IMG/VR virus record: IMGVR_UViG_3300048834_000213
Location: 1-38,944 of that record
Direction: 5' to 3' (one strand)
Source: a virus
DNA: 38,944 nucleotides
In this document: in pieces, positions 8,951 through 38,944 of the stretch
How the letters are laid out: each line of letters starts with the position of its first letter
How positions within the stretch are numbered: position 1 is the first letter of the stretch
The notes under the pieces: model-generated
Database searches by the model: none
Told to the model about the DNA's origin: nothing
The model's input: the letters and a program-made list of their open reading frames with translations, nothing else
Made by a program: the position numbers and the translations under genes

Positions 8951-9411
8951 GTCATATCCGCACGCAGATCAGGGCAGCGTTCAAGACGGCAATCGAAGCG
9001 CACGAGGACTCCGACGGTTACGCGGTGTTCGCCGGTCGGAAACACAAGTGGAACGCCAAGACCGACGTCGCGCTGATCGACATGATGATCTCCAACGATC
9101 AATCACAGCCTGGTTCGACCATGGGCTCGTCGCGCCACATGCGGCATCACATCGCGTCGGTCTATATCCGGGTGCAGCGCAATGCGGCGTCCGACGAACT
9201 CGACGACGCGCTCGATGCTGACGAATTGTTCGTCGTCGACGCGGTGATGGGTTACGACTGGACCGCGCTGCTGGAAGAAGAACCCGAATTGACCCAGGTC
9301 AATTTCGCGGACTCGAACGATTCGGCTGGTCTGCCGGTCGGAACCATTGTCATCCGGTTCGACGTGCGGTATCGTATCGACCGACGCGACCCGGAAACGG
9401 CGCAACACTGA
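8947..9411 (+). CDS. Tail terminator, gpU-like
   Basis: A 154-residue protein starting at GTG 8947, overlapping the FII-like stop by four bases. Position between the head-tail joiner and tail tube genes, size and the beginning SHIRTQIRAAFKTAI fit the gpU-like tail terminator, which stops tube growth at the right length and binds the head. The long loop with MGSSRHMRHHIASVYIRVQR and the final strand GTIVIRFDVRYRID are as expected for a U-like ring subunit. Lambda has Z between FII and U; that gene is absent here (a candidate is at 38041). Confidence 0.65.
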   Translation: MSHIRTQIRAAFKTAIEAHEDSDGYAVFAGRKHKWNAKTDVALIDMMISNDQSQPGSTMGSSRHMRHHIASVYIRVQRNAASDELDDALDADELFVVDAVMGYDWTALLEEEPELTQVNFADSNDSAGLPVGTIVIRFDVRYRIDRRDPETAQH

Positions 9412-9426
9412 ACTCAGGAGGCGAAC

Positions 9427-9816
9427 ATGACGACCTATTCGGGTCATCTGGGTGCGATCGAAGCCGATGGCGATGTGATCGGCGAACTGCGCAGTTTCGA
9501 TCTGACGCACGAGGTGCGCAAGCACGATACGTCCGTCATGGGTCAGGGCTACACGAAGAACAACGCGGGGCAGGAAACGCTGTCCGGGTCGATCGTCGTG
9601 TTCCATGACCACAGCGACCTCGGGCAACAGGAACTCGTCGTCGGCACCACCTTCGCCGGTGTGTTCTATCCGACCGGCGACACGGCTGGCCATACCCAGA
9701 TCAGCGCGACGATGCGCGTTCTGAGCGTGGCGCGCAAGGCGTCGAACGACGGGGATGTGGAGAACACCTATTCCGTCGAATCGACCTCGGCTGTCACCAT
9801 TGCGGCGGTGTCGTGA
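9427..9816 (+). CDS. Major tail tube protein
   Basis: A 129-residue protein with its own ribosome-binding site (GGAGG seven bases before ATG 9427), consistent with high expression. The composition is almost all beta strand (SGHLGAIEADGDVIGELRSFDL, LSGSIVVFHDHSDLGQQ, ISATMRVLSVARKAS), as in tail tube subunits related to gpV. It lacks the C-terminal Ig-like domain of lambda gpV. It lies directly before the G/GT chaperone pair and tape measure gene, which fixes its role. Confidence 0.82.
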   Translation: MTTYSGHLGAIEADGDVIGELRSFDLTHEVRKHDTSVMGQGYTKNNAGQETLSGSIVVFHDHSDLGQQELVVGTTFAGVFYPTGDTAGHTQISATMRVLSVARKASNDGDVENTYSVESTSAVTIAAVS

Positions 9817-10187
9817 TGGGTCTCGACATCAATGCGCTGCTGAAGGCCGAACTCGGTGCGAAACCGAAATTCGAGGCGACGATCACGCTCGGCGGTGTGG
9901 AAATCACGGCCTATTCCGGCCCGATCACGCCCTCCGACATGATCGCGGTCGAACGCGAATATCCCGGTTTCGAGCAGAACCCGACGCAGGGTGGTCTAGT
10001 GGAACTGCTGATCCACAAGGCCGTCGACGAGAACGGGAAACGCATCTTCGCCAAGGGTCGCGACAAGCCGCTGCTGCTGTTGCTGCCCTCCACGAAGATC
10101 ACCGAGATCGTCCAGGCGCTTTTCGGTGATGCGTTCCGGCCGGCCGAGATTAACGAGGAATCGCTGAAGGCCGCCGAGGGAAACTGA
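9816..10187 (+). CDS. Tail assembly chaperone G-like (0-frame product)
   Basis: A 123-residue protein, probable counterpart of lambda gpG, which coats the tape measure protein during tail assembly and is not part of the virion. It has an N-terminal beta region (KFEATITLGGVEITAYSG) and a helical C-terminal half (KITEIVQALFGDAFRPAEI). The ATG shares one base with the tail tube stop (TGATG); GTG 9813 is possible. The last two sense codons, GGA AAC, are part of a slippery heptamer, so a fraction of ribosomes should shift and make the longer product. Confidence 0.8.
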   Translation: MGLDINALLKAELGAKPKFEATITLGGVEITAYSGPITPSDMIAVEREYPGFEQNPTQGGLVELLIHKAVDENGKRIFAKGRDKPLLLLLPSTKITEIVQALFGDAFRPAEINEESLKAAEGN

Positions 10188-22727: not shown

Positions 22728-24613
22728 CTGATCACCAGTTTCTTTGCTTCCTCGATGTAGAACAACCAGTTCACGGTGTCCCATTGGAACGTCACCATGT
22801 CGTTCGTCGGCGTCACGGTCCACCCGGCCTGGACGCTGAACCGACGATCCTCGGTCTGACCTTTCAGCCCCGGCAGCGTCTTGACGAGCGGTCGGCCATC
22901 GGTCGAGACGTAATAGCGCGTCGTGTTCTGGATCCGCTCGTCTCCCCAGAGCAACCCGCCGTTCCGCGGCACCTTGATCGACAACTGAAAATCGTAGGGG
23001 TCACGATGCGCCATGATGAAATCGGCCACCGGAACACCATGGACCATCTGCGCCTCGGCGGCCTTGCGCACGACGAGCATCGAGTGATCCTGGTGCCACT
23101 GGCGTTCTCGGGTGCTGTGGTCATCAAACCACGTCTGATAGGCATAGGCGCCGATGCGCTTCAGCCCGCCCTTCGTCTTGACCGCGATGTAGCTGTTCAC
23201 GTCGCGGATGAACATCTTGGAATACTGCGCGGATTCGAGATCGAGCCCAGTGTGCTGTTCCCAGAGTTTGCAGACCTGCTTCATCCAGTCGACGTCAGCG
23301 CGACGGATTTTCACGGTGAGACCGTCGGTGTTGATCTGGATCAGCCGGATACCGTCGTTCGTCATCAACCACTCGGCGAGCATGCACAGGAGCAACTGCC
23401 CGTTCACGGTGATCGACATGGTGTATTGCGGGTCGTAGAACGGCCCGTATTTGTTGTTTGAGTCCCCATAGACCCCGTTTAGGGCCAGCTTCAACATGGC
23501 GTTCTCGGGGGTGCCTTTCTTATATTCCTGCCGCATCTTGAACACGTTCTGGTAGACGTCACAGAACGTCTCGCTCAGGTGCGCCGGGAAAAATCGGTTC
23601 GTGATCGCCAGGTTCGGGTAGTAGGACGCCACGTCCCAATCCCAGATTTCCCATTCGTCGTCGGCCTCGATGACCACAGAGTCCAGCGATCCGTGAATGC
23701 CGCCGGTGCCAAAGTCAAACCGGAACCCGTTCACGACGGCGTGCAGCCCCTTGAACACACCTTTCGTCTCGACGGTTTCGGACAGGGTGTCGTCGATCAT
23801 CTGCCGGGTGAGAACCTGGTCCTGAAGCCAACGCAGCACGCGCTGGAATTCCGGGTGTTGGAACGACACGCGGGGGCTGATCACGTCGCGCAGGGCGATC
23901 TGCTGGCGCATGGTCTGCCGCGGCTGACGTCGGCCGCCGACGCGCTCGTAGCAGGGCGTCCCGCTGCGTTCCAGTTCGCGCTCAAAGAATTTCTTGCCGA
24001 TCTTCGTGTCGTTGAAGTTCAGCACGTCGCCCATGTCGGGATAACGCGCTGCGAGTTCGTCACGGAACCGGATTTGCTCGCGACTCGCATGAAAGAACCG
24101 CAGCGTCTCCGAGACGTCGTGTGCCATGTAGGAAACGATCTCGGATTTCTGCGCCGCGGTCGTGGGTTTGTCGGGCGGATAGGGCAAATCGACAACGCGC
24201 GACGACCGCATGTTCAGTTCCAGTTTCTTCAGGCTGGTCGTGCGGGCCTTGTTGTCAAAATGGTGGATCAGGTAAAGATCACCCTGCGTCACCATTCGAT
24301 CGCTGGGCCAGATGGTGTTCGCGAACCGATCCTGGCCGAAGATGATCTGCGTTCCCAGATTGTGCGCCGTCACCGAATCGAAACGGCCCATCTTGATCAG
24401 CGGTTGGCACACCGGCCAGTCGAACCCGACGTTGTTGAACCCGAACATGCGATCGCCGCGATGCGCGAGTTCCATGCAGAAATCGGCGAACCTCCCCGAG
24501 TCGTCGATACGATCCGAGACCTCGAAGATGTAACGATGCTGCGTCTCCGCATGCACGACGCAAGCGCAGAACAGGTCATAATAGGTTTCGATGTCGTAAA
24601 CCCAGTCGGTCAT
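22724..24613 (-). CDS. Compact family B DNA polymerase with 3'-5' exonuclease
   Basis: A 629-residue replicative polymerase. The exonuclease motifs are Exo I VYDIETYYD (D7, E9), Exo II GFNNVGFD (N60, D65) and Exo III YMAHD (Y162, D166). The polymerase motifs are A DVASYYPN (D327), B KLALNGVYG (K375, N379, Y382) and C INTDGL (D430). Motif C is unusual: family B enzymes normally have DTDS, whereas here the first Asp is Asn (N428) and Ser is Gly; the metal-binding second Asp is kept. No terminal-protein region is evident and a primase-helicase is encoded, so priming is probably by primase. The length is near that of the small phage B polymerases. Confidence 0.88.
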   Translation of the reverse strand: MTDWVYDIETYYDLFCACVVHAETQHRYIFEVSDRIDDSGRFADFCMELAHRGDRMFGFNNVGFDWPVCQPLIKMGRFDSVTAHNLGTQIIFGQDRFANTIWPSDRMVTQGDLYLIHHFDNKARTTSLKKLELNMRSSRVVDLPYPPDKPTTAAQKSEIVSYMAHDVSETLRFFHASREQIRFRDELAARYPDMGDVLNFNDTKIGKKFFERELERSGTPCYERVGGRRQPRQTMRQQIALRDVISPRVSFQHPEFQRVLRWLQDQVLTRQMIDDTLSETVETKGVFKGLHAVVNGFRFDFGTGGIHGSLDSVVIEADDEWEIWDWDVASYYPNLAITNRFFPAHLSETFCDVYQNVFKMRQEYKKGTPENAMLKLALNGVYGDSNNKYGPFYDPQYTMSITVNGQLLLCMLAEWLMTNDGIRLIQINTDGLTVKIRRADVDWMKQVCKLWEQHTGLDLESAQYSKMFIRDVNSYIAVKTKGGLKRIGAYAYQTWFDDHSTRERQWHQDHSMLVVRKAAEAQMVHGVPVADFIMAHRDPYDFQLSIKVPRNGGLLWGDERIQNTTRYYVSTDGRPLVKTLPGLKGQTEDRRFSVQAGWTVTPTNDMVTFQWDTVNWLFYIEEAKKLVIR

Positions 24614-28676: not shown

Positions 28677-30296
28677 ATGCAGCTTCGCGATTATCAGATC
28701 AAGCTGAAGAACGATGCGTTCGACGGATGGCGGGATGGCCACAGGAACGTCATGCTCGTTTCCCCGACGAGATCCGGTAAAACCGTCACCATGGCGTCGA
28801 TCGCCAACGACCTCGCGCCGCAGCCTGGTGTGGTCATAGCGCACCGTGTGGAAATTGTCGGTCAGATCAGCACGACGTTCGCGCGGTTCGGTATTCGTCA
28901 TAACGTGATCGGCCCGTCATCGACCGTTAAATACTGCATTCAGAAGCATATTCGTGATGTTGGGCGGTCTCATGTTGATCGTCGCGCGGTCGTCACTGTC
29001 GCAGCGGTCGATACTCTTGTGGCGCGGTCGAGCAAACTCGGTCAGTGGCCGGCAGATCAGCGGTGGTGGATGATCGACGAGGCGCATCACGTCCTGGCCG
29101 ACAACAAGTGGGGAAAAGCGGTCAATCTGTTCGGCAATGGTTGGGGTCTGGGCGTGACGGCCACACCACTGCGCGCTGATCGCAGATCGCTCCATGTCGA
29201 TCAGGGCGGTGTGTTCTCACACATGGTCATCGGCCCCTCGATGCGTGAACTGATCAACCGAGGGTCAATCTGCGAATATCGGATATTTGCCCCGAAAAAC
29301 AGCATCGACGTTTCGGCGGTGCCGGTGGGCTCGACGGGTGATTACTCGCAACCGAAGCTGCGTGAGGCGGCCCACAAATCCATGATTGTCGGTGACATCG
29401 TGGAGTCCTATCTGAAAATCGCACCGGGCAAGCGCGGAATCACGTTCACCGTCGACGTCGAACAGGCGATCGAGGTGGCAGAGGCGTTCAACCGCGCTGG
29501 GGTGCCGGCCATGGCAGTTCACGCCCAAACTGACGCAACGATTCGCGACGATGCGGTGCGCAAACTTGCCACAGGCAAGCTGCTGCAACTCGTCAACGTC
29601 GACCTGTTCGGCGAAGGTTTTGACGTGCCGGTGGTCGAAGTCGTCTCGATGGGTCGTCCGACGATGAGTTACGGGCTGTTCGTGCAGCAATTCGCTCGTG
29701 CGCTGACCCCGTTCGAGGGCAAGACGCATGGGATCATCATCGACCATGTGTCGAACGTGAAGCGCCACGGTCTACCCGACGCGCCACGCACCTGGACGTT
29801 GCGCGCCGAGGAACGCGGCAAGCGGTTGCCGAAAGACCCCGACGAGATTGCGGTGAAACGCTGCGTCGAGTGCTTCAACGATTACCGGGCGGTCTCGAAG
29901 ATGTGCCCGTTCTGTGGTCATGTCCACGAACCCGCAGGTCGCGACCGACCGGAACAGGTCGACGGCGATCTGGTCGAACTTGACCCGCAGGTTCTCGCGC
30001 AGATGCGTGACGACGCCGCAAGAGCCGCGCACGTCATTGATACAAGGAAACTGACGGGCCTGAGTCGGATCAAAGCGGAAAATCACAACATCACCGCTTC
30101 GGCACAGGTCGATCTGCGTGACGCGATCGCGCGATGGGCTTGGGTGTGGCACAGTCGCGGCGCTGCCGATTCGGAGATTTACCGTCGGTTCTTCCACCTG
30201 TTCGGAACCGACGTGATGACGGCGCAAACCCTCGGCGCCACCGATGCGAGGGAACTCACGGAGAGGGTGCGAAATGCAACGGTATGTTCGGACTGA
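28677..30296 (+). CDS. DEAH-box superfamily II helicase with zinc finger
   Basis: A 539-residue helicase. Motif I is SPTRSGKT (residues 29-36), motif II DEAH (134-137), motif III TAT (161-163), motif V LFGEGFDVP (310-318) and motif VI QQFARAL (337-343), which lacks the last usual Arg. This set is like the phage relatives of UvsW/RecG-type and type III restriction helicases that remodel DNA forks. A Cys4 finger (C396, C399, C410, C413 with H415) follows the helicase core, then a C-terminal helical domain (AENHNITASAQVDLRDAIAR). It is first in the rightward early operon, right after the divergent promoters. Confidence 0.88.
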   Translation: MQLRDYQIKLKNDAFDGWRDGHRNVMLVSPTRSGKTVTMASIANDLAPQPGVVIAHRVEIVGQISTTFARFGIRHNVIGPSSTVKYCIQKHIRDVGRSHVDRRAVVTVAAVDTLVARSSKLGQWPADQRWWMIDEAHHVLADNKWGKAVNLFGNGWGLGVTATPLRADRRSLHVDQGGVFSHMVIGPSMRELINRGSICEYRIFAPKNSIDVSAVPVGSTGDYSQPKLREAAHKSMIVGDIVESYLKIAPGKRGITFTVDVEQAIEVAEAFNRAGVPAMAVHAQTDATIRDDAVRKLATGKLLQLVNVDLFGEGFDVPVVEVVSMGRPTMSYGLFVQQFARALTPFEGKTHGIIIDHVSNVKRHGLPDAPRTWTLRAEERGKRLPKDPDEIAVKRCVECFNDYRAVSKMCPFCGHVHEPAGRDRPEQVDGDLVELDPQVLAQMRDDAARAAHVIDTRKLTGLSRIKAENHNITASAQVDLRDAIARWAWVWHSRGAADSEIYRRFFHLFGTDVMTAQTLGATDARELTERVRNATVCSD

Positions 30297-30930
30297 CGAG
30301 ACGAAGGTTTACATGGGCGTTGCGTTGCGTCGCATGGTCGGGGGTGGATGGATTGCAGATGATGTCGAGATACCAAAAGGATCAACCGCTGAGATTAGCG
30401 ACGACGTTCTGATCCTCGGCGGCACGATCCGGGGCGGCATGATCCTCGGCGGCACGATCTGGGGCGGCACGATCGAGGGCGGCACGATCCGGGGCGGCAC
30501 GATCTGGGGCGGCACGATCGAGGGCGGCACGATCCGGGGCGGCACGATCCGGGGCGGCATGATCCTCGGCGGCACGATCCGGGGCGGCACGATCGAGGGC
30601 GGCACGATCGAGGGCGGCACGATCGAGGGCGGCACGATCCGGGGCGGCGCGATCCGGGGCGGCGCGATCCGGGGCGGCACGATCGAGGGCGGCACGATCC
30701 GGGGCGGAGTGTTTACAAAATCTCCGTCGTGTGCGCAGCGCAGCGACGGTTATATGTTCGTGGCGAAAATCATCGAGAGCGGTGAACTTCGCATCTGGGC
30801 TGGATGTCGGAACTTTTCGTGGGATGAAGCTGTTGCGCACTGGTCCACTCCCGGACACCCGCACAGTGCCGAATCGCTGCGGATCATCAACTTCCTGAAG
30901 GAACAAGAGAATGCCACTCATCACGTCTGA
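30274..30930 (+). CDS. Pentapeptide-repeat protein (20 repeats)
   Basis: A 218-residue protein with three parts: an N-terminal strand region (residues 1-46), 20 consecutive five-residue repeats (47-146) of the form I-x-G-G-T/M/A, and a C-terminal globular part ([20 protein letters not shown], ending in a helix). With I at the central position and G two before it, the repeats can form the right-handed square beta helix of pentapeptide-repeat proteins, about five coils. The variable position is R, E, W or L. Some family members (MfpA, Qnr) mimic DNA and act on gyrase; such a role here is speculative. ATG 30274 overlaps the helicase end and has GAGAGG upstream. Confidence 0.8.
30412..30711 (+). 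repeat. 15-bp minisatellite inside the pentapeptide gene
   Basis: Twenty units of 15 bp, nearly identical (atccggggcggcacg and variants with gag, tgg or ctc). The first eight bases of the coding unit hardly vary, so copy number is likely to change by slippage or recombination without loss of frame. Confidence 0.93.
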
Positions 30931-31429: not shown

Positions 31430-31796
31430 GGCCGCGGTCCAGCAACGCATCCGGCTGCGGGCCGCCGAGATGGGCACACCCCTGTTGCGCAACAACAGCG
31501 GGGCGGTGACGACTGACGACGGGCGCCATATCCGCTTCGGGCTCGGGAACGATTCGCCCGAGATCAACAAGCGGTTCAAGTCGTCGGACCTGATCGGCAT
31601 CTGGCCTGTGGTCATCATGCCGGAACATGTCGGACTGACGCTTGGGTTGTTCTTCGCGGTCGAATGCAAGGCACCGGGCTGGGTATACCGCGAGACCGAC
31701 GAACACGCTGCGGCCCAGGCGCGTTTCGGCCAATGGGTGACGAACCACGGCGGGATTTTCCGTTTCGCCTCTGACATCAAGGACGTCTGGAAATGA
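31422..31796 (+). CDS. VRR-NUC domain endonuclease
   Basis: A 124-residue stand-alone VRR-NUC nuclease, a branch of the PD-(D/E)XK superfamily found in phages and in FAN1, where it acts on branched or flapped DNA. The motif elements are E3 (REAAVQQR), RNNSGAV, the glycine-rich GLGND, D56 (SSDLIGIWP), E81-x-K83 (VECKAPGW) and Q in RFGQWVTNHGGI. GTG 31422 is the start: GGAGG lies seven bases upstream inside the HD gene. A GTG with no upstream coding sense is more credible than the open frame back to 31290. It overlaps the TetR-like gene by four bases. Confidence 0.85.
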   Translation: MREAAVQQRIRLRAAEMGTPLLRNNSGAVTTDDGRHIRFGLGNDSPEINKRFKSSDLIGIWPVVIMPEHVGLTLGLFFAVECKAPGWVYRETDEHAAAQARFGQWVTNHGGIFRFASDIKDVWK

Positions 31797-32038
31797 CCAC
31801 TGTGCGACTCGACGAAGCGAAACGTCGCGAGATCATGCTGACCGCCGCACGACGCATCGTTGCGGAGCGGGGGTTCTGGGCGGTGACGCACGGCACCGTC
31901 GCGAAACGCTGCGTCGTGCCGACGAGCCTGGCGCTGGTGCGGCGCTATTTCAGCACGAAGGACGAACTGTGGCGGGCGACGATCGGGAGCGATCCGGTGA
32001 TGCTCGTTGCGGCGCGTGAGGCGGGGTGGGTGGAATGA
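31793..32038 (+). CDS. Stand-alone TetR-type DNA-binding domain
   Basis: An 81-residue protein that matches only the N-terminal helix-turn-helix of TetR-family repressors (MLTAARRIVAERGFWAVTHG, then AKRCVVPTSLALVRRYFSTK and DELWRAT). Normal TetR proteins have 190-220 residues with a C-terminal ligand and dimerisation domain, which is missing here; the frame ends cleanly with a stop overlapping the next ATG. The protein may bind DNA as a monomer or with a partner, or occupy host TetR operators. It is one of two candidate regulators in this operon. Confidence 0.8.
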   Translation: MTTVRLDEAKRREIMLTAARRIVAERGFWAVTHGTVAKRCVVPTSLALVRRYFSTKDELWRATIGSDPVMLVAAREAGWVE

Positions 32039-33065: not shown

Positions 33066-34192
33066 CGATGACCTACGGATCAGTTTGCAGCGGGATCGAG
33101 GCGGCGTCGGTCGCTTGGGAACCGCTCGGGTTCAAGCCCCTGTGGTTTTCCGAGATCGAGGCGTTCCCCTCGGCGGTGCTGGCGCATCACTGGCCCGAGG
33201 TGCCTAACCTCGGCGACATGACGCTGCTGCCCGATGCGGTTCGGGCCGGTCGTGCCCCTGCCCCGGATATTCTCGTCGGCGGCACGCCTTGCCAGGCATT
33301 CTCGATCGCCGGCATGCGGCAGTCGCTCGACGACGACCGTGGACAATTGACCCTTTCGTTTGTGAGGCTTGCCGATGCGATTGACCACGCTCGTTCATCT
33401 GCTGGGCAAGAGCCCTGCGTCGTCGTCTGGGAAAACGTCCCCGGCGTCCTGTCCACAGCCGACAATGCGTTCGGTTGCTTCCTTGGAGCACTTGCCGGTT
33501 CGGGACGGCCTCTCGTCGGTGGGGAAAAGCCTGCTGCTGGAAAATCGAACGCACAATGGCGATGGCAGAAACCGAAAAGATGGCGTTGCCGGGGCCGCCG
33601 GAAGCACAGGAAGGGATACCATGTCCCTCTCTGGTCGAACGCTGGTATTGTGCTTGGACCCTCGCGAGCAATCGCGTGGCGGATCCTTGACGCCCAATAT
33701 TTCGGAGTGGCCCAACGCCGCCGTCGTGTGTTTGTTGTCGCAAGTGCTCGAAACGGGTTCGATCCCGCAGCGGTTCTATTTGAGTTCGACGGCCTGCGCC
33801 GGGATACTGCGCCGCGCCGAGAAGCGGGGCAAGGCGCTACCGCCGATGCTGGACGCGGCGCTGCGGGCGGTTGTTTCTGGGACGGTGGCCAGCTGAGCCA
33901 GACGCTTGATGCTGTTCTGCACAAGGGCCAGACCATGCCAGAGAAGAACCGTTTCCCGGCAGTTCTACAGCCTGCCGCTGTCGCCCATGTCGACGTCATG
34001 CCGACGATGGTTTCCGCCCTCGCCGTGCGCCGTCTGACCCCGCGCGAGTGCGAGCGGCTGCAAGGGTTTCCCGACGATCACACGCTGGTGCCGGTGCGCA
34101 ACAAGCCCGCCGCAGACGGGCCGCGATACAAGGCTATCGGTAACAGCATGGCCGTGCCGGTGATGCGCTGGATCGGGGAGAGACTGACGTGA
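33062..34192 (+). CDS. C5-cytosine DNA methyltransferase
   Basis: A 376-residue m5C methyltransferase. Motif I is SVCSGIEAASVAW, motif IV GTPCQAFS with the catalytic C77, motif VI WENVPG (E124), motif VIII QRRRRVFVVA and motif X GNSMAVPVM. Between motifs VI and VIII lies an unusually basic stretch (about residues 150-195; KPKRWRCRGRRKHRKGY), longer than in related phage enzymes. The target domain is between motifs VIII and IX. GTG 33062 overlaps the previous stop (GTGA); ATG 33068 is an alternative. With the adjacent amino-methyltransferase it gives the phage two kinds of DNA methylation. Confidence 0.92.
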   Translation: MTMTYGSVCSGIEAASVAWEPLGFKPLWFSEIEAFPSAVLAHHWPEVPNLGDMTLLPDAVRAGRAPAPDILVGGTPCQAFSIAGMRQSLDDDRGQLTLSFVRLADAIDHARSSAGQEPCVVVWENVPGVLSTADNAFGCFLGALAGSGRPLVGGEKPAAGKSNAQWRWQKPKRWRCRGRRKHRKGYHVPLWSNAGIVLGPSRAIAWRILDAQYFGVAQRRRRVFVVASARNGFDPAAVLFEFDGLRRDTAPRREAGQGATADAGRGAAGGCFWDGGQLSQTLDAVLHKGQTMPEKNRFPAVLQPAAVAHVDVMPTMVSALAVRRLTPRECERLQGFPDDHTLVPVRNKPAADGPRYKAIGNSMAVPVMRWIGERLT

Positions 34193-34467
34193 CGAAACGA
34201 GCATGGACCGACGCTGAAGATCGCCAACTGCGGGTGCTGCGCAGCGCGAGGGTTTGCACGAAAACAATCGCGTTGGTTCTCGGCAGATCGAAATCCTCCG
34301 TGACGATGCGGATCGCTCGTTTCCCCTGTCCGGTGTCGAACAATTTCTTTGACGCTTTGCCGCCCGAGGTCGTTGATTGGCTGTGTCGTATCACACCCGA
34401 GAACGCGAACCTTGCCGACACGGTGCGATCAATCATCCAGGACGCCTATGCCGATGAAACTCAATAA
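34189..34467 (+). CDS. SANT/Myb-like helix-turn-helix protein
   Basis: A 92-residue protein with an N-terminal helix-turn-helix (RAWTDAEDRQLRVLRSARVC, TKTIALVLGRSKSSVTMRI), the pattern of SANT/Myb-like and GcrA-like phage DNA-binding domains. The C-terminal half (PPEVVDWLCRITPENANLAD) is helical and unassigned. It could regulate early or late transcription. The gene starts at GTG 34189 overlapping the methyltransferase stop, and overlaps the primase start by 20 bases. Confidence 0.75.
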   Translation: MTKRAWTDAEDRQLRVLRSARVCTKTIALVLGRSKSSVTMRIARFPCPVSNNFFDALPPEVVDWLCRITPENANLADTVRSIIQDAYADETQ

Positions 34468-36643
34468 CCGCTTCCTGAACTGGTTCCTGTCGGCAGACGG
34501 GCGCAAATTACCGTGCCGGGTCGACGGAACGGTATGCGACGCCCACGATCCGGCGAATCACGTCGATTACCACACGGCGGCGGCCACCGGGCGCGGGGTT
34601 GCCTATGCACTGTCGGACGAGGACGGCTGGTTTTTCCTCGACCTGGACAAGTGCCGCGGTGCGGACGGCGCGTGGTCTGCCGAGGCTGTGGCCATCTGGC
34701 AGTCGTTCACCGGCGCATGGGGCGAGGTGTCGCAATCGGGAACCGGCCTTCACATCATGGGTCGCTGTGATCCGCGGCGTCTCGCCGATCGGAAACACAA
34801 GTGGAACGGATGGCTGGAATTTTACACCGGGGGGAGGTTCATCGCCTTCGGTCAGGGGTGGTCTCCGATCGGCGGCACTGACACGGGTCGCGACTGGACG
34901 GACCAATTGCTGCGGGTCGTGCCACAGAAAACCGAACTCGGTGAACTGCCTGTCGGCGTAGATCCGACCTGGACCGGACCCGAGGATGACGAGGTGCTGA
35001 TCCGGCTCGCGCTGGCGTCCCGTGGCGCCTCTGGGGCGTTCGGCGGCGTCACCTTCGCCGACCTGTGGACCGCTGCTGCCGGGCCCCTCTCCGCGCGCTG
35101 GCCGGCCTATGACGGCAATGGCGGGTTCGACCGCTCGTCGGCCGACGCTGCATTGATGTCGCACCTCGCGTTCTGGACGGGCAAGGACGCCCCGCGGATG
35201 GACCGTCTGTTCCGTCGTTCGGCGCTGATGCGCGACAAATACCGGGACCGGGCGGATTATCGGTCGGATACCGTCTCGGGGGCGATCCGCCTTTGCCGCA
35301 AGGTCTACGACGTTCCGCGGCCGCCGGCCCCGACGACTCCTGAAACGGGCGGGTCCGAGGTGTTCCTGACGGTTCCCGAGATGATCGAGCATTTCAAGGG
35401 CTGCGTCTATGTCCGTGACATGCACCGGGTTCTGGTGCCCGACGGCGCGCTGCTGAAGCCCGAGCAATTCAACGCGACCTATGGCGGCCACCTGTTCACC
35501 ATGATGCCCGACGGAACGAAACCGACACGCAAGGCGTTCGAGGCTTTCACCGAATGCGCCGTTCATCGGTTCCCGTTCGTGAACGCTGCGTCGTTCCACC
35601 CGGAGGCGCCGTTCGGGACGATCCTGGAAGATGGTGTGAACATCTACGTCCCGGCCGAGGTCAAGACGGTGCCCGGTGACGTTTCGCGGTTCCTGAGCGT
35701 TATCGAGCGGATCCTGCCGGTTCCCGACGACCGGGCGATTGCACTGGCGTGGGCGTGCTGGGTCGTGCAGAACCCCGGACGGAAAGCCCTCTGGGCGCCG
35801 GTGCTTCAGGGCGCCGAGGGCAACGGTAAATCCATGCTCGGCGAGTGTATCGCCTATGCGATCGGGCAGCGGTATGTCCACAGGCCGCGGGCCAAGGAAC
35901 TCGGCTCGACGTTCAACGCCTGGCAGGCGAACAAACTGCTGATCCTCGTCGAAGAAATCTATATCTCCGACCGTCGCGAATTGCTCGACGACCTGAAGCC
36001 GAACATCACGCAATACACGCTGCCGATCCGGGACATGCAGACCACCGAAGTCAACAAGAACGTCCCGACGAACTGGTATTTCACGACGAACCACCGGGAC
36101 GCCGTGATCAAGCAGAAAACCGACCGGCGACTGGCGGTGTTCTTCACGGCGCAGCAAACCCGTGAGGACGTCGAGCGGGATTTTCCGGGTCGGTTTTTCC
36201 CGGAATACTGGACTTGGTTGCGCGAGGGTGGCGGGTTCGAGGCGGTGGCGCATTGGCTGAAAACCACCGCACCGGATCCTCGGTTCTCGCCGGATACCTG
36301 TTTCATGGCGCCGCGCACGTCCAGCACCGAGGCGGCGATCATTGCCACACGGGGGCCGATTGAAGCCGAGATCGTGGAAGCCGTCGAGTCAGGCATGCAG
36401 GGGTTCCGTGGCGGCTGGTTGTCGTCCTGGGCTCTGGACAACCTGCTGCGTCAGCGCGGCGGTCGCGGCGTGTCCAGGTCAAAGCTGGCCGAGATCGTCG
36501 AGTCCATGGGTTACGAGAACGGTGGCCGCTCGGGCCGGGGGATCATGCGCGAGGAAATGAAACGCCCCGTGCTTTGGAGGCAACGGGGCGTGACGGGCGG
36601 TGTCGATGAATATCTGGCGGCTCAGGGACCGGGGTATGGGTGA
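34448..36643 (+). CDS. Primase-polymerase/superfamily 3 helicase fusion
   Basis: A 731-residue replication initiator. Residues 1-150 are a prim-pol type domain with the metal-binding FFLDLD (D65, D67) and SGTGLHIMG (H102). The C-terminal half is a D5/DUF5906-like SF3 helicase: Walker A GAEGNGKS (455-462), Walker B LLILVEEI (497-504) and the sensor motif WYFTTNH (543-549). The last 150 residues are a helical/winged domain. Such proteins melt the origin and prime synthesis, making the palindromic array at 37686-37993 a natural target. ATG 34448 has AGGA five bases upstream; ATG 34454 is possible. It is the last gene of the rightward operon. Confidence 0.88.
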   Translation: MPMKLNNRFLNWFLSADGRKLPCRVDGTVCDAHDPANHVDYHTAAATGRGVAYALSDEDGWFFLDLDKCRGADGAWSAEAVAIWQSFTGAWGEVSQSGTGLHIMGRCDPRRLADRKHKWNGWLEFYTGGRFIAFGQGWSPIGGTDTGRDWTDQLLRVVPQKTELGELPVGVDPTWTGPEDDEVLIRLALASRGASGAFGGVTFADLWTAAAGPLSARWPAYDGNGGFDRSSADAALMSHLAFWTGKDAPRMDRLFRRSALMRDKYRDRADYRSDTVSGAIRLCRKVYDVPRPPAPTTPETGGSEVFLTVPEMIEHFKGCVYVRDMHRVLVPDGALLKPEQFNATYGGHLFTMMPDGTKPTRKAFEAFTECAVHRFPFVNAASFHPEAPFGTILEDGVNIYVPAEVKTVPGDVSRFLSVIERILPVPDDRAIALAWACWVVQNPGRKALWAPVLQGAEGNGKSMLGECIAYAIGQRYVHRPRAKELGSTFNAWQANKLLILVEEIYISDRRELLDDLKPNITQYTLPIRDMQTTEVNKNVPTNWYFTTNHRDAVIKQKTDRRLAVFFTAQQTREDVERDFPGRFFPEYWTWLREGGGFEAVAHWLKTTAPDPRFSPDTCFMAPRTSSTEAAIIATRGPIEAEIVEAVESGMQGFRGGWLSSWALDNLLRQRGGRGVSRSKLAEIVESMGYENGGRSGRGIMREEMKRPVLWRQRGVTGGVDEYLAAQGPGYG

Positions 36644-37431: not shown

Positions 37432-37617
37432 TCACATTGCCCAAACATGGAGCGTTGACGGGTCAATCTTGCGCGTGATGACGGTGCGCTTCAGTTTTTT
37501 CGCGGCGCGGTGAATATCGACACGCAGTTGTTCGATATTATCGTCGCGATAAACGGTGGGCGGGGCGGCGTTAATTGCCGCTATTTCTTCCAGTAATTTA
37601 GCGGTATTTTGCTTCAT
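37432..37617 (-). CDS. Small protein, first of the origin-proximal leftward operon
   Basis: A 61-residue protein with an N-terminal amphipathic helix (KQNTAKLLEEIAAINAAPPT) and a basic second half (VDIHRAAKKLKRTVITRKID). The start ATG 37617 has AGGAG ten bases upstream and a good promoter 30 bases further. The frame is open beyond the ATG into the repeat array, but those codons would lie upstream of the promoter. No family is recognised; by position it could be a regulator of, or binder at, the repeat array. Confidence 0.6.
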   Translation of the reverse strand: MKQNTAKLLEEIAAINAAPPTVYRDDNIEQLRVDIHRAAKKLKRTVITRKIDPSTLHVWAM

Positions 37618-37647: not shown

Positions 37648-37677
37648 AATATAACCATAGCACCGGGGGGATGTCAA
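37648..37677 (-). promoter_or_regulatory. Promoter of the small leftward operon
   Basis: On the minus strand TTGACA (37677-37672), 18 bp, TATATT (37653-37648): a perfect -35 and a five-of-six -10, ending 31 bases before ATG 37617. It lies just outside the palindromic array, so array-bound protein may affect it. Confidence 0.65.
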
Positions 37678-37685
37678 GTGAGAAG

Positions 37686-37993
37686 AAAATCCAATGAAAT
37701 CAAGGACGTCACAGACGTCACAACCAAAAAAAGTCTGTGACGTCAAATTTCCCTTTAGAATCAAGGACGTCACAGCCGTCACATCTTTTCTACTTTTCTA
37801 TAGAAAAAAAGAGGGGTGTATGTGACGTGTATAATTACTATAATTAACGCACACGCACACATGTGCACGCATATGTAAAAGATCCGTGCAAAGCTGTGAC
37901 GTCTGTGACGTCCTTGATTCTAAAGGGAAAAGTGACGTCACAGGCTGTGACGTCGAGGTCGAGTCTGTGACGTCGTTGATTCTATTGGATTTT
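37686..37993. repeat. Giant palindromic iteron array, candidate replication origin
   Basis: This non-coding block is a 308-bp imperfect palindrome centred near 37839. The outer arms 37686-37716 and 37963-37993 match at 28 of 31 positions; the inner arms 37748-37783 and 37895-37930 match at 35 of 36. The nonamer TGTGACGTC or its complement occurs exactly at 37705, 37714, 37736, 37766, 37895, 37904, 37934, 37946 and 37966, and with one mismatch at 37775 and 37821. The centre (37784-37894) is AT-rich, with a perfect 14-bp palindrome TTTTCTATAGAAAA at 37794-37807. Iterons plus AT-rich DNA next to a primase-helicase gene suggest an origin; a partition or master regulatory site is the alternative. 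Confidence 0.8.
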
Positions 37994-38040
37994 TTTCCGG
38001 GGGTTGACCGGGGGGTGTTCGGACGGCTACTGTGGCCATC

Positions 38041-38703
38041 ATGATCATCGACCTCGAACACAATCTGGACGACGCGCGGCGGGACACGCTCGGTTTTTTC
38101 CGGGACCAGATCCCGTTCGCAATGACGCGCGCCATCAACGACACGATGATGGATGTTCAGCGGCATCTGCGGGGGACCACGCTGCCGGCGGCCTGGACGA
38201 ACCGCAACAAGGCGCTGCCTCGCGCCATGACCTCGATCATCCCGGATGCGCAGGGGCGGCCGGGGTTGATGAACTCGCGCACGAGGAAATTCGAGGTGGT
38301 GATCGGGCCGGCGCGCAATAACCGGGGGTATCTGGCCGGGGAGGGGTTTGCCGATCGCAACGTCAGCGGGGCGACGAAAACACCCAAGGGCTCGGCTGTG
38401 GCCATCCCGAAGATCGACAAGGGACTCCGACGCAACGCCACCGGCTCGATCCCGAACCGTCTCAGGCCACGCAACAACCCGAAGCTGTTCAAGAAAGACG
38501 GCGCGTTGTTCGAGCGTCAGAAGGTCGGCGGAAAGAAAACCATCGTCAAGCGATACACCCTGACGCCCCAGGCGAAAGGCACACGACATCTGCGGCGGTT
38601 CTATCCCGATGCGAACATGGTGGTCAGCCGGGTTTTTTCCGGGCACTTCGACACGCGGTTCGATCAGGCGATCCGCACCTCACGGTTTTTTCTGGGCAGG
38701 TGA
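38041..38703 (+). CDS. Putative gpZ-like tail completion protein
   Basis: A 220-residue basic protein, alone between the palindromic array and the right edge. The beginning QIPFAMTRAINDTMMDVQRH followed by WTNRNKALPRAM, the middle GYLAGEGFADRNVSGATKTP with VAIPKIDKGLRR, and the basic C-terminal RHLRRFYPDANMVV resemble phage minor tail proteins of the Z type (tail completion, joining to the head). Lambda has Z between FII and U; here no gene lies there, which makes displacement plausible. The GTG at 38032 is in frame, but ATG 38041 is favoured; the ribosome-binding site is weak. A terminator overlaps its stop. Similarity was judged by eye. Confidence 0.5.
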   Translation: MIIDLEHNLDDARRDTLGFFRDQIPFAMTRAINDTMMDVQRHLRGTTLPAAWTNRNKALPRAMTSIIPDAQGRPGLMNSRTRKFEVVIGPARNNRGYLAGEGFADRNVSGATKTPKGSAVAIPKIDKGLRRNATGSIPNRLRPRNNPKLFKKDGALFERQKVGGKKTIVKRYTLTPQAKGTRHLRRFYPDANMVVSRVFSGHFDTRFDQAIRTSRFFLGR

Positions 38704-38722
38704 GTCGACCTGTCGGTTTTTT
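38695..38722 (+). terminator. Rho-independent terminator after the gpZ-like gene
   Basis: GGCAGGT (38695-38701) pairs with ACCTGTC (38708-38714) in a 7-bp stem (one G-U pair) with a 6-base loop, followed by GG and six T (38717-38722). The stem contains the last codons of the gene; a second T6 tract follows at 38728-38733. Confidence 0.6.
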
Positions 38723-38776
38723 CCGGGTTTTTTCCGGGGCGCCGATTTTCAGGGGTCCAAGGTCGAAATCCTCGGC

Positions 38777-38828
38777 GTTAGCGCTAACATTCAACGAACC
38801 GCATGTTAGCGCTAACGGTAGCGCTAAC
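38777..38828. promoter_or_regulatory. Three LacI-type operator palindromes
   Basis: GTTAGCGCTAAC, a perfect 12-bp palindrome, occurs at 38777-38788 and 38805-38816; GGTAGCGCTAAC (one change) follows directly at 38817-38828. The second and third lie within a longer segment beginning ATGTTAGC and ending GCTAACAT. Palindromes with a central CG in this form are the usual operators of LacI-family regulators in proteobacteria. No LacI-family gene is in the window. The rest of the 241 bases after 38703 holds no gene. Confidence 0.6.
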
Positions 38829-38841
38829 ATTGACCCTGGCG

Positions 38842-38944
38842 CCTCGAGCGCCTGCACCTGCCGCTGGCCGTCCTCGAGCGCCTGCACCTGCCGCTGGCCG
38901 TCCTCGAGCGCCTGCACCTGCCGCTGGCCGTCCTCGAGCGCCTG
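38842..38944. repeat. 30-bp tandem repeat at the right edge
   Basis: Three full 30-bp units begin at 38842, 38872 and 38902, and a partial 13-base unit runs to the last base. The unit begins cctcgagcgcctgcacctgc. As 30 is a multiple of three, one minus-strand frame reads a constant decapeptide ALEDGQRQVQ, which would suit a coiled coil, but no start or stop context supports a gene within the window. Confidence 0.93.

Follow-up and report, generated by a model that had tools for sequence, protein, structure and literature searches.

The question raised by the right-hand end of the IMG/VR virus record IMGVR_UViG_3300048834_000213 is what purpose is served by ten copies of a nonamer set in mirror order inside a large palindrome. 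The record is linear, and "the window" is used below for the whole stretch of 38.9 kb. The array is very probably the phage's replication origin: judged from sequence comparison, it would be bidirectional and bound by the winged helix of the phage's PrimPol-helicase, with two hexamers loaded head-to-head. The order of its sites is common to the window and the functional origin region of the Escherichia coli satellite EcCICFT073.

The iteron array and its palindrome

Nine exact copies and one single-mismatch copy of GACGTCACA were located within 37705 to 37974, in the order F F R F F on the left and R R F R R on the right, where F and R are the two orientations. The features of the region are as follows:

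37682-37997, no strand: proposed origin, an imperfect interrupted palindrome of 316 bp with a 71% opposite-strand self-match over its full length
37705-37713, plus: iteron 1 (F), GACGTCACA, exact
37714-37722, plus: iteron 2 (F), GACGTCACA, exact, 9 bp after iteron 1
37736-37744, minus: iteron 3 (R), exact
37766-37774, plus: iteron 4 (F), exact
37775-37783, plus: iteron 5 (F), GCCGTCACA, one mismatch
37784-37894, no strand: central AT-rich core, candidate melting site (AT of the inner gap, 0.62)
37821-37829, minus: near copy TGTGACGTG inside the core, one mismatch
37895-37903, minus: iteron 6 (R), exact
37904-37912, minus: iteron 7 (R), exact
37934-37942, plus: iteron 8 (F), exact, overlapped by AGTGACGTC on the minus strand at 37931
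37946-37954, minus: iteron 9 (R), exact
37966-37974, minus: iteron 10 (R), exact

The original prediction, made from the sequence alone, had described these ten sites, their order, and the single left-hand mismatch, and all were recovered, as was the symmetry of four of the five iteron pairs within 1 bp. Its 308-bp palindrome is present but extends over 316 bp and is imperfect, with inner inverted arms of 57 nt (37732 to 37788 and 37890 to 37946, 91% complementary) and outer arms of 35 nt (37682 to 37716 and 37963 to 37997, 89% complementary). The eleventh near copy, described as central, also exists but lies about 15 bp off center.

Between 37617 and 38031, 159 inverted 7-mer pairs were counted against 5.6 ± 3.1 in dinucleotide shuffles, and 125 direct pairs against 6.5 ± 3.2. 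The array is the densest inverted-pair center of the window (84, with 16 for the next center), and the only further exact copy of GACGTCACA in the 38.9 kb is at 23555. When ten sites were given random places and orientations, at least four mirrored pairs arose in 5/500 trials; with places fixed and only orientations randomized, four mirrored pairs arose in 37/500. The mirror symmetry by itself is thus only moderately surprising, and because of this the case rests on the comparison with relatives, which carries the weight. Since the iterons are not all in one orientation, the array does not fall under the direct-repeat iteron origins of the lambda and plasmid type. The arms are 83% identical within iterons and 69% identical outside them; because this identity extends beyond the iterons, the palindrome alone cannot separate binding at the sites from recognition of a hairpin.

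The proposed initiator

Two features describe the protein that would act on the array:

34448-36643, plus: PrimPol-SF3 helicase of the NrS-1 polymerase type, proposed initiator (PF22763, 6.7e-23; PF19263, 3.4e-12; phrog_1829, 1.4e-101)
36356-36583, plus: C-terminal winged helix of the initiator (residues 637 to 712), proposed iteron reader (AlphaFold2 predicted local distance difference test [pLDDT] score about 88; 87.5 alone)

PF22763 is the Pfam family NrS1-1_pol-like_HBD, and PF19263 is DUF5906. Two marks of an NrS-1-type enzyme, the AEP PrimPol and HBD domains and the SF3/DUF5906 helicase domain, were found in the protein, and its family profile matched the NrS-1 primase in the PDB (N-terminal structures) at about 1e-38. 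An AlphaFold2 model (pLDDT, 87.7) was aligned to the NrS-1 C-terminal region with a Z score of 24.5 and to the SaPI5 primase-helicase with a Z score of 17.9; Foldseek was also run. The winged helix was predicted with confidence, both in the full model and in the isolated domain. A match to the NrS-1-type HBD family was also seen in an archaeal control genome, that of Haloferax volcanii.

Pairs of related elements give an indication of which part of the initiator reads the iterons. Klebsiella phage JD001 and phage LAPP1 share their iterons although their PrimPol domains are only 48% identical, which maps the reader away from the PrimPol domain; their C termini are 95% identical and the rest overall 95 to 100%. 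Loci L028 and L030 have unrelated iterons, with SF3 domains 90% identical and C termini 49% identical. Binding of ori repeats through C-terminal domains has been described for SaPI Rep and SCCmec Cch2 (PMC7581432). As a correlation in a few pairs rather than proof, these comparisons point to the C-terminal part of the initiator as the probable seat of iteron reading.

Mirrored arrays near related initiators

Loci carrying related initiators were scanned for inverted-pair centers up to 400 bp downstream of the initiator stop codon, with significance at a P value of ≤0.05 against windows of the same locus. Significant centers were found in 19/41 loci of the discovery set (Fisher, 2e-23) and in 10/17 loci of a second sample, drawn independently through PF22763 in two phyla (Fisher, 3e-15); the upstream control window was significant in 3/52 loci. 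Some of the misses have arrays that lie farther off (the window itself, L013, L017, JD001, and LAPP1), and others have arrays that are visible by eye yet fall under the threshold (L101, L109, and L111).

In these arrays the repeats are about 9 bp apart and mirrored, and their sequence differs in almost every element. L019, L029, and L030 each have 2 to 4 copies of a 9-bp iteron on either side of a gap of roughly 70 to 80 bp, each with a sequence of its own and directly after the stop codon. In L116, from the independent sample, the order F F F R F F on the left and R R F R R R on the right forms a perfect mirror of six pairs. The same pattern was seen in GTDB genomes of Parvibaculum, Rubrivivax, Azonexus, Luteimonas, Phycisphaerales, Planctomycetota, and others. 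Among cultured phages, a similar region was found in phi105, JD001 and its relatives, and Vibrio phage 24. No 8-mer clusters were detected near the primase genes of Susan, 7-7-1, LAPP1, SppYZU01, and JD001, and the end of the leftward operon of Susan held nothing convincing; in JD001 and LAPP1 the array was found upstream of TerS instead. JD001 (L026) carries its iteron/AT-rich region in two nearly identical copies (9401 to 9931 and 22925 to 23334), both of which precede a structural operon and may be either two origins or control regions with a common sequence.

The original prediction had proposed looking for the nonamer array in other phage genomes and had held that absence from close relatives would speak against it. 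At the DNA level, no match to the array was obtained in 50,697 phage records; the architecture, not the sequence, recurs. The exact 18-mer GACGTCACAGACGTCACA had three matches in IMG/VR, all in coding or unrelated sequence and none in arrays, and the JD001 core pattern had none there. In the closest relatives, the equivalent place holds unrelated sequence, yet again with repeats. Arrays were present in L003, where TAGCAAG units lie directly 3' of the primase gene and CAATGAAATCAAGG is common to the arm boundary of the window, and in L032, a Rhodobacteraceae locus, where mirrored CACGTCAC sites occupy a similar gap between leftward and rightward genes and ACGTCAC is common to the window iteron. 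L013 qualified in part, its repeats being partly direct and weakly mirrored; L018 was weak, its signal not being significant; in L004 and L014 none was found. Overall, the outcome was mixed. L015 and L016 were excluded from this check, their contigs ending before the junction. Separately, L013 has dense inverted repeats of TGCGCGCAACAATCGTGC at 9170 to 9461, about 1.6 kb to the right of its array-like block.

Proposed origin function

Established here are the sites with the order in which they stand, the family to which the initiator belongs and its predicted fold, the statistical link of mirrored arrays to that initiator family, and the recurrence of the site order in an origin region of known function. 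From these we infer binding, melting, loading of two hexamers, and bidirectional forks. The C-terminal winged helix of the 34448-36643 protein would bind the 9-bp iterons, and the head-to-head inner pairs (37766 to 37783 and 37895 to 37912) would set two helicase hexamers facing the core at 37784 to 37894. The hexamers would then melt this core and unwind in both directions, and on the strands laid bare the PrimPol domain would make primers for the PolA-type polymerase that the phage itself encodes. The remaining sites farther out, F F R to the left and F R R to the right, probably increase occupancy or control firing. By analogy, the mirror order suggests head-to-head loading of two hexamers, as is thought for SaPI Rep. 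Origin function with loading of two helicase complexes, which the original prediction had also put forward, is the best-supported reading of the locus and is in this sense partly supported.

Genomic setting

The window holds a tailed-phage gene set (terminase, portal, head, and tail genes) together with genes for a DNA polymerase, an exonuclease, a DEAD-type helicase, a VRR-type nuclease, methylases, helix-turn-helix (HTH) proteins, and the primase-helicase. The array lies between small leftward open reading frames (ORFs), running from 37617 down to 36648, and a rightward gene:

37432-37617, minus: 61-amino-acid leftward ORF adjoining the array, no family match
37648-37677, minus: promoter-like TTGACA-18-TATATT immediately outside the array, directed toward the leftward ORF (11/12 consensus matches; a consensus match only)
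38032-38703, plus: minor-tail-like gene on the right flank (phrog_1924, 1e-5)

The array had originally been placed in an AT-richer block between the primase-helicase gene and the packaging end. The AT-richer block was borne out (GC around the array, 45%, against about 60 to 65% genome-wide), but the immediate neighbors are the leftward ORFs and the minor-tail-like gene, and the array begins 1.06 kb past the primase stop at 36643, with the leftward ORFs intervening. No relatives of the tail protein (38032 to 38703) were found by pattern search or tblastn.

Several other repeats were noted. A GGGTTTTTTCCGG-like motif occurs in five copies on one strand at 37988 to 38737 (0.24 expected in the whole window), and similar stretches lie near the tail gene in L032, L018, and L004. 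The palindrome-like GTTAGCGCTAAC is present in three copies at 38776 to 38831, just ahead of the contig end. A 15-bp tandem repeat of 19 copies (30418 to 30707) within the ORF at 30244 to 30930 encodes pentapeptides. Both contig ends consist of perfect short tandem repeats, at 1 to 121 (20 bp, 6.1 copies) and 38842 to 38944 (30 bp, 3.4 copies). Repeats of this kind also occur at or close to this position in the contigs of the relatives L003 (8220 to 8356, 27 bp, 5 copies) and L015 (11726 to 11835, 12 bp), so the break in the record probably falls in a hypervariable minisatellite that separates TerS from the minor tail gene.

Alternative explanations

Among the other explanations weighed, an operator cluster is an unlikely one, although it is the least unlikely of them. 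The sites would serve divergent transcription of the leftward small genes and the rightward tail and late genes, bound by a phage regulator such as the TetR-like protein (31793 to 32038) or the D5-like HTH protein (34189 to 34467). The position of the array between divergent genes fits this, as do the promoter-like site facing left just outside its left end and the double occurrence of the region in Jedunaviruses, where either copy precedes structural genes. However, in many relatives the array lies directly 3' of the primase gene with no divergent gap (in L019, the next gene runs in the same direction), and the phasing of about 9 bp and the mirror order are those of the EcCICFT073 origin region. 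Use of the array both as origin and as operator is possible, and the Jedunavirus double copies leave room for an additional role in transcription. Less probable is a structural palindrome, in which the hairpin or cruciform itself is recognized, as proposed for pRN1 and Bordetella phage BIP-1, with the iterons arising as a side effect of inverted duplication. The inner arm was indeed duplicated as a unit, spacers included, with the 69% identity outside the iterons already given, and BIP-1 has a single inverted pair and no iterons; a simple stem, however, leaves unexplained the direct copies about 9 bp apart and the inverted R and F sites inside the arms, and the pattern recurs with unrelated sequences across many lineages. 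A terminase recognition site (cos or pac), suggested by the location on the terminase side and by JD001, PEAT2, and Vibrio phage 24, in which the array lies a short way upstream of TerS, is slightly less probable still: the array tracks the primase gene in the loci of GTDB genomes and in the satellite EcCICFT073, and TerS of the window is at 662, beyond the tandem repeats of both contig ends. A partition (parS-like) or other maintenance site is the most improbable; multiple inverted sites and a ParB-like gene near the primase of phage 7-7-1 would suit it, but the array tracks the primase, and no ParA or ParB family was found among the window proteins scanned (some ORFs lay outside the scan).

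Certain points weigh against the replication origin as well. The inverted-pair scan favors mirrored arrays by design, and the iteron cores used for comparing site orders were picked by eye. No array was found near the primase in L004, L014, Susan, Milano, L033, L034, L056, L100, and L114. The array of the window is set off from its initiator gene, as described above, and the paired Jedunavirus regions, each ahead of a structural operon, fit a promoter role too. GC skew, which had been suggested as a check, gave no origin signal and no switch at the array; it follows gene direction.

Significance

Beside genes for related primase-helicases, the mirrored layout recurs with different repeat sequences in other phages, in a phage satellite, and in prophage-like loci of several bacterial phyla. 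These occurrences indicate that the layout is also found alongside NrS-1-type PrimPols, both in phages of full size and in elements from other bacterial phyla. Relative to the open-licence papers compared, the novelty lies in the occurrence of the mirrored-array origin form in tailed phages of full size and in how widely it goes together with NrS-1-type PrimPols; in the window, 1.1 kb separates the array from the initiator gene. We lean, with some reserve, toward a broader reading in which the winged helix and the iteron sequence change together fast, so that a great many mutually orthogonal origins arise. The results provide testable candidate origins for the cultured phages phi105, JD001 and its relatives, and Vibrio phage 24. 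They also offer a hypothesis on the way in which NrS-1-type polymerases find their start site.

Comparison with known systems

The original prediction knew of no described phage origin of this form, but precedents exist in the origins of phage-inducible chromosomal islands (PICIs) and in the stem-loops of pRN1 and BIP-1. For pRN1 and BIP-1, the origin was proposed to be a large inverted repeat located 3' of the replication gene, and for pRN1 this was shown (PMC4234260). As in the window, the repeat lies downstream of a gene whose product combines an AEP primase, an SF3 helicase, and a winged helix. BIP-1, however, has a single inverted pair without iterons, downstream of its rep gene; the stem-loop type has one stem-loop, whereas the palindrome of the window, also large, has ten phased 9-bp sites and is displaced from the gene. 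The NrS-1 phage polymerase has the same domain set and Pfam HBD family as the window initiator; the NrS-1 origin is not established, and two 8-nt priming sites have been suggested (PMC7102993). In the alpha protein of phage P4, the winged helix of the primase-helicase binds the origin repeats (ori/crr) (PMC4234260); its primase is of the TOPRIM type, unlike that of the window, and P4 is likened by description only. Simian virus 40 T antigen and papillomavirus E1 are SF3 helicases like the window initiator (E1 fold, Z score about 12) and recognize their cognate origins (PMC7581432), but they bind through N-terminal domains, at DNA sites without homology to those of the window.

A likeness in site order is seen with EcCICFT073, in which a pri-rep-ori segment drives plasmid replication (PMC6092414). 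Its origin region (L124, 18981 to 19285) was the strongest center of that locus in the same scan (21, against 10 for the next), and its TCTACC sites, F F R F F F on the left and R R F R R on the right, repeat the window order with one extra site. PICI origins, those of EcCICFT073 and SaPI among them, are likewise served by an SF3-type primase-helicase initiator of similar fold, as the SaPI5 alignment indicates. Unlike a PICI, the window represents a tailed phage of full size that carries terminase, capsid, and tail genes and a DNA polymerase of its own; its initiator is of the NrS-1 type, its iteron sequence is unrelated, and its array stands apart from the 3' end of the initiator gene, where many relatives do have one. 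Because the window is no PICI and its array does not directly follow the gene, we call the array a variant that would work like a PICI origin, rather than a member of that group.
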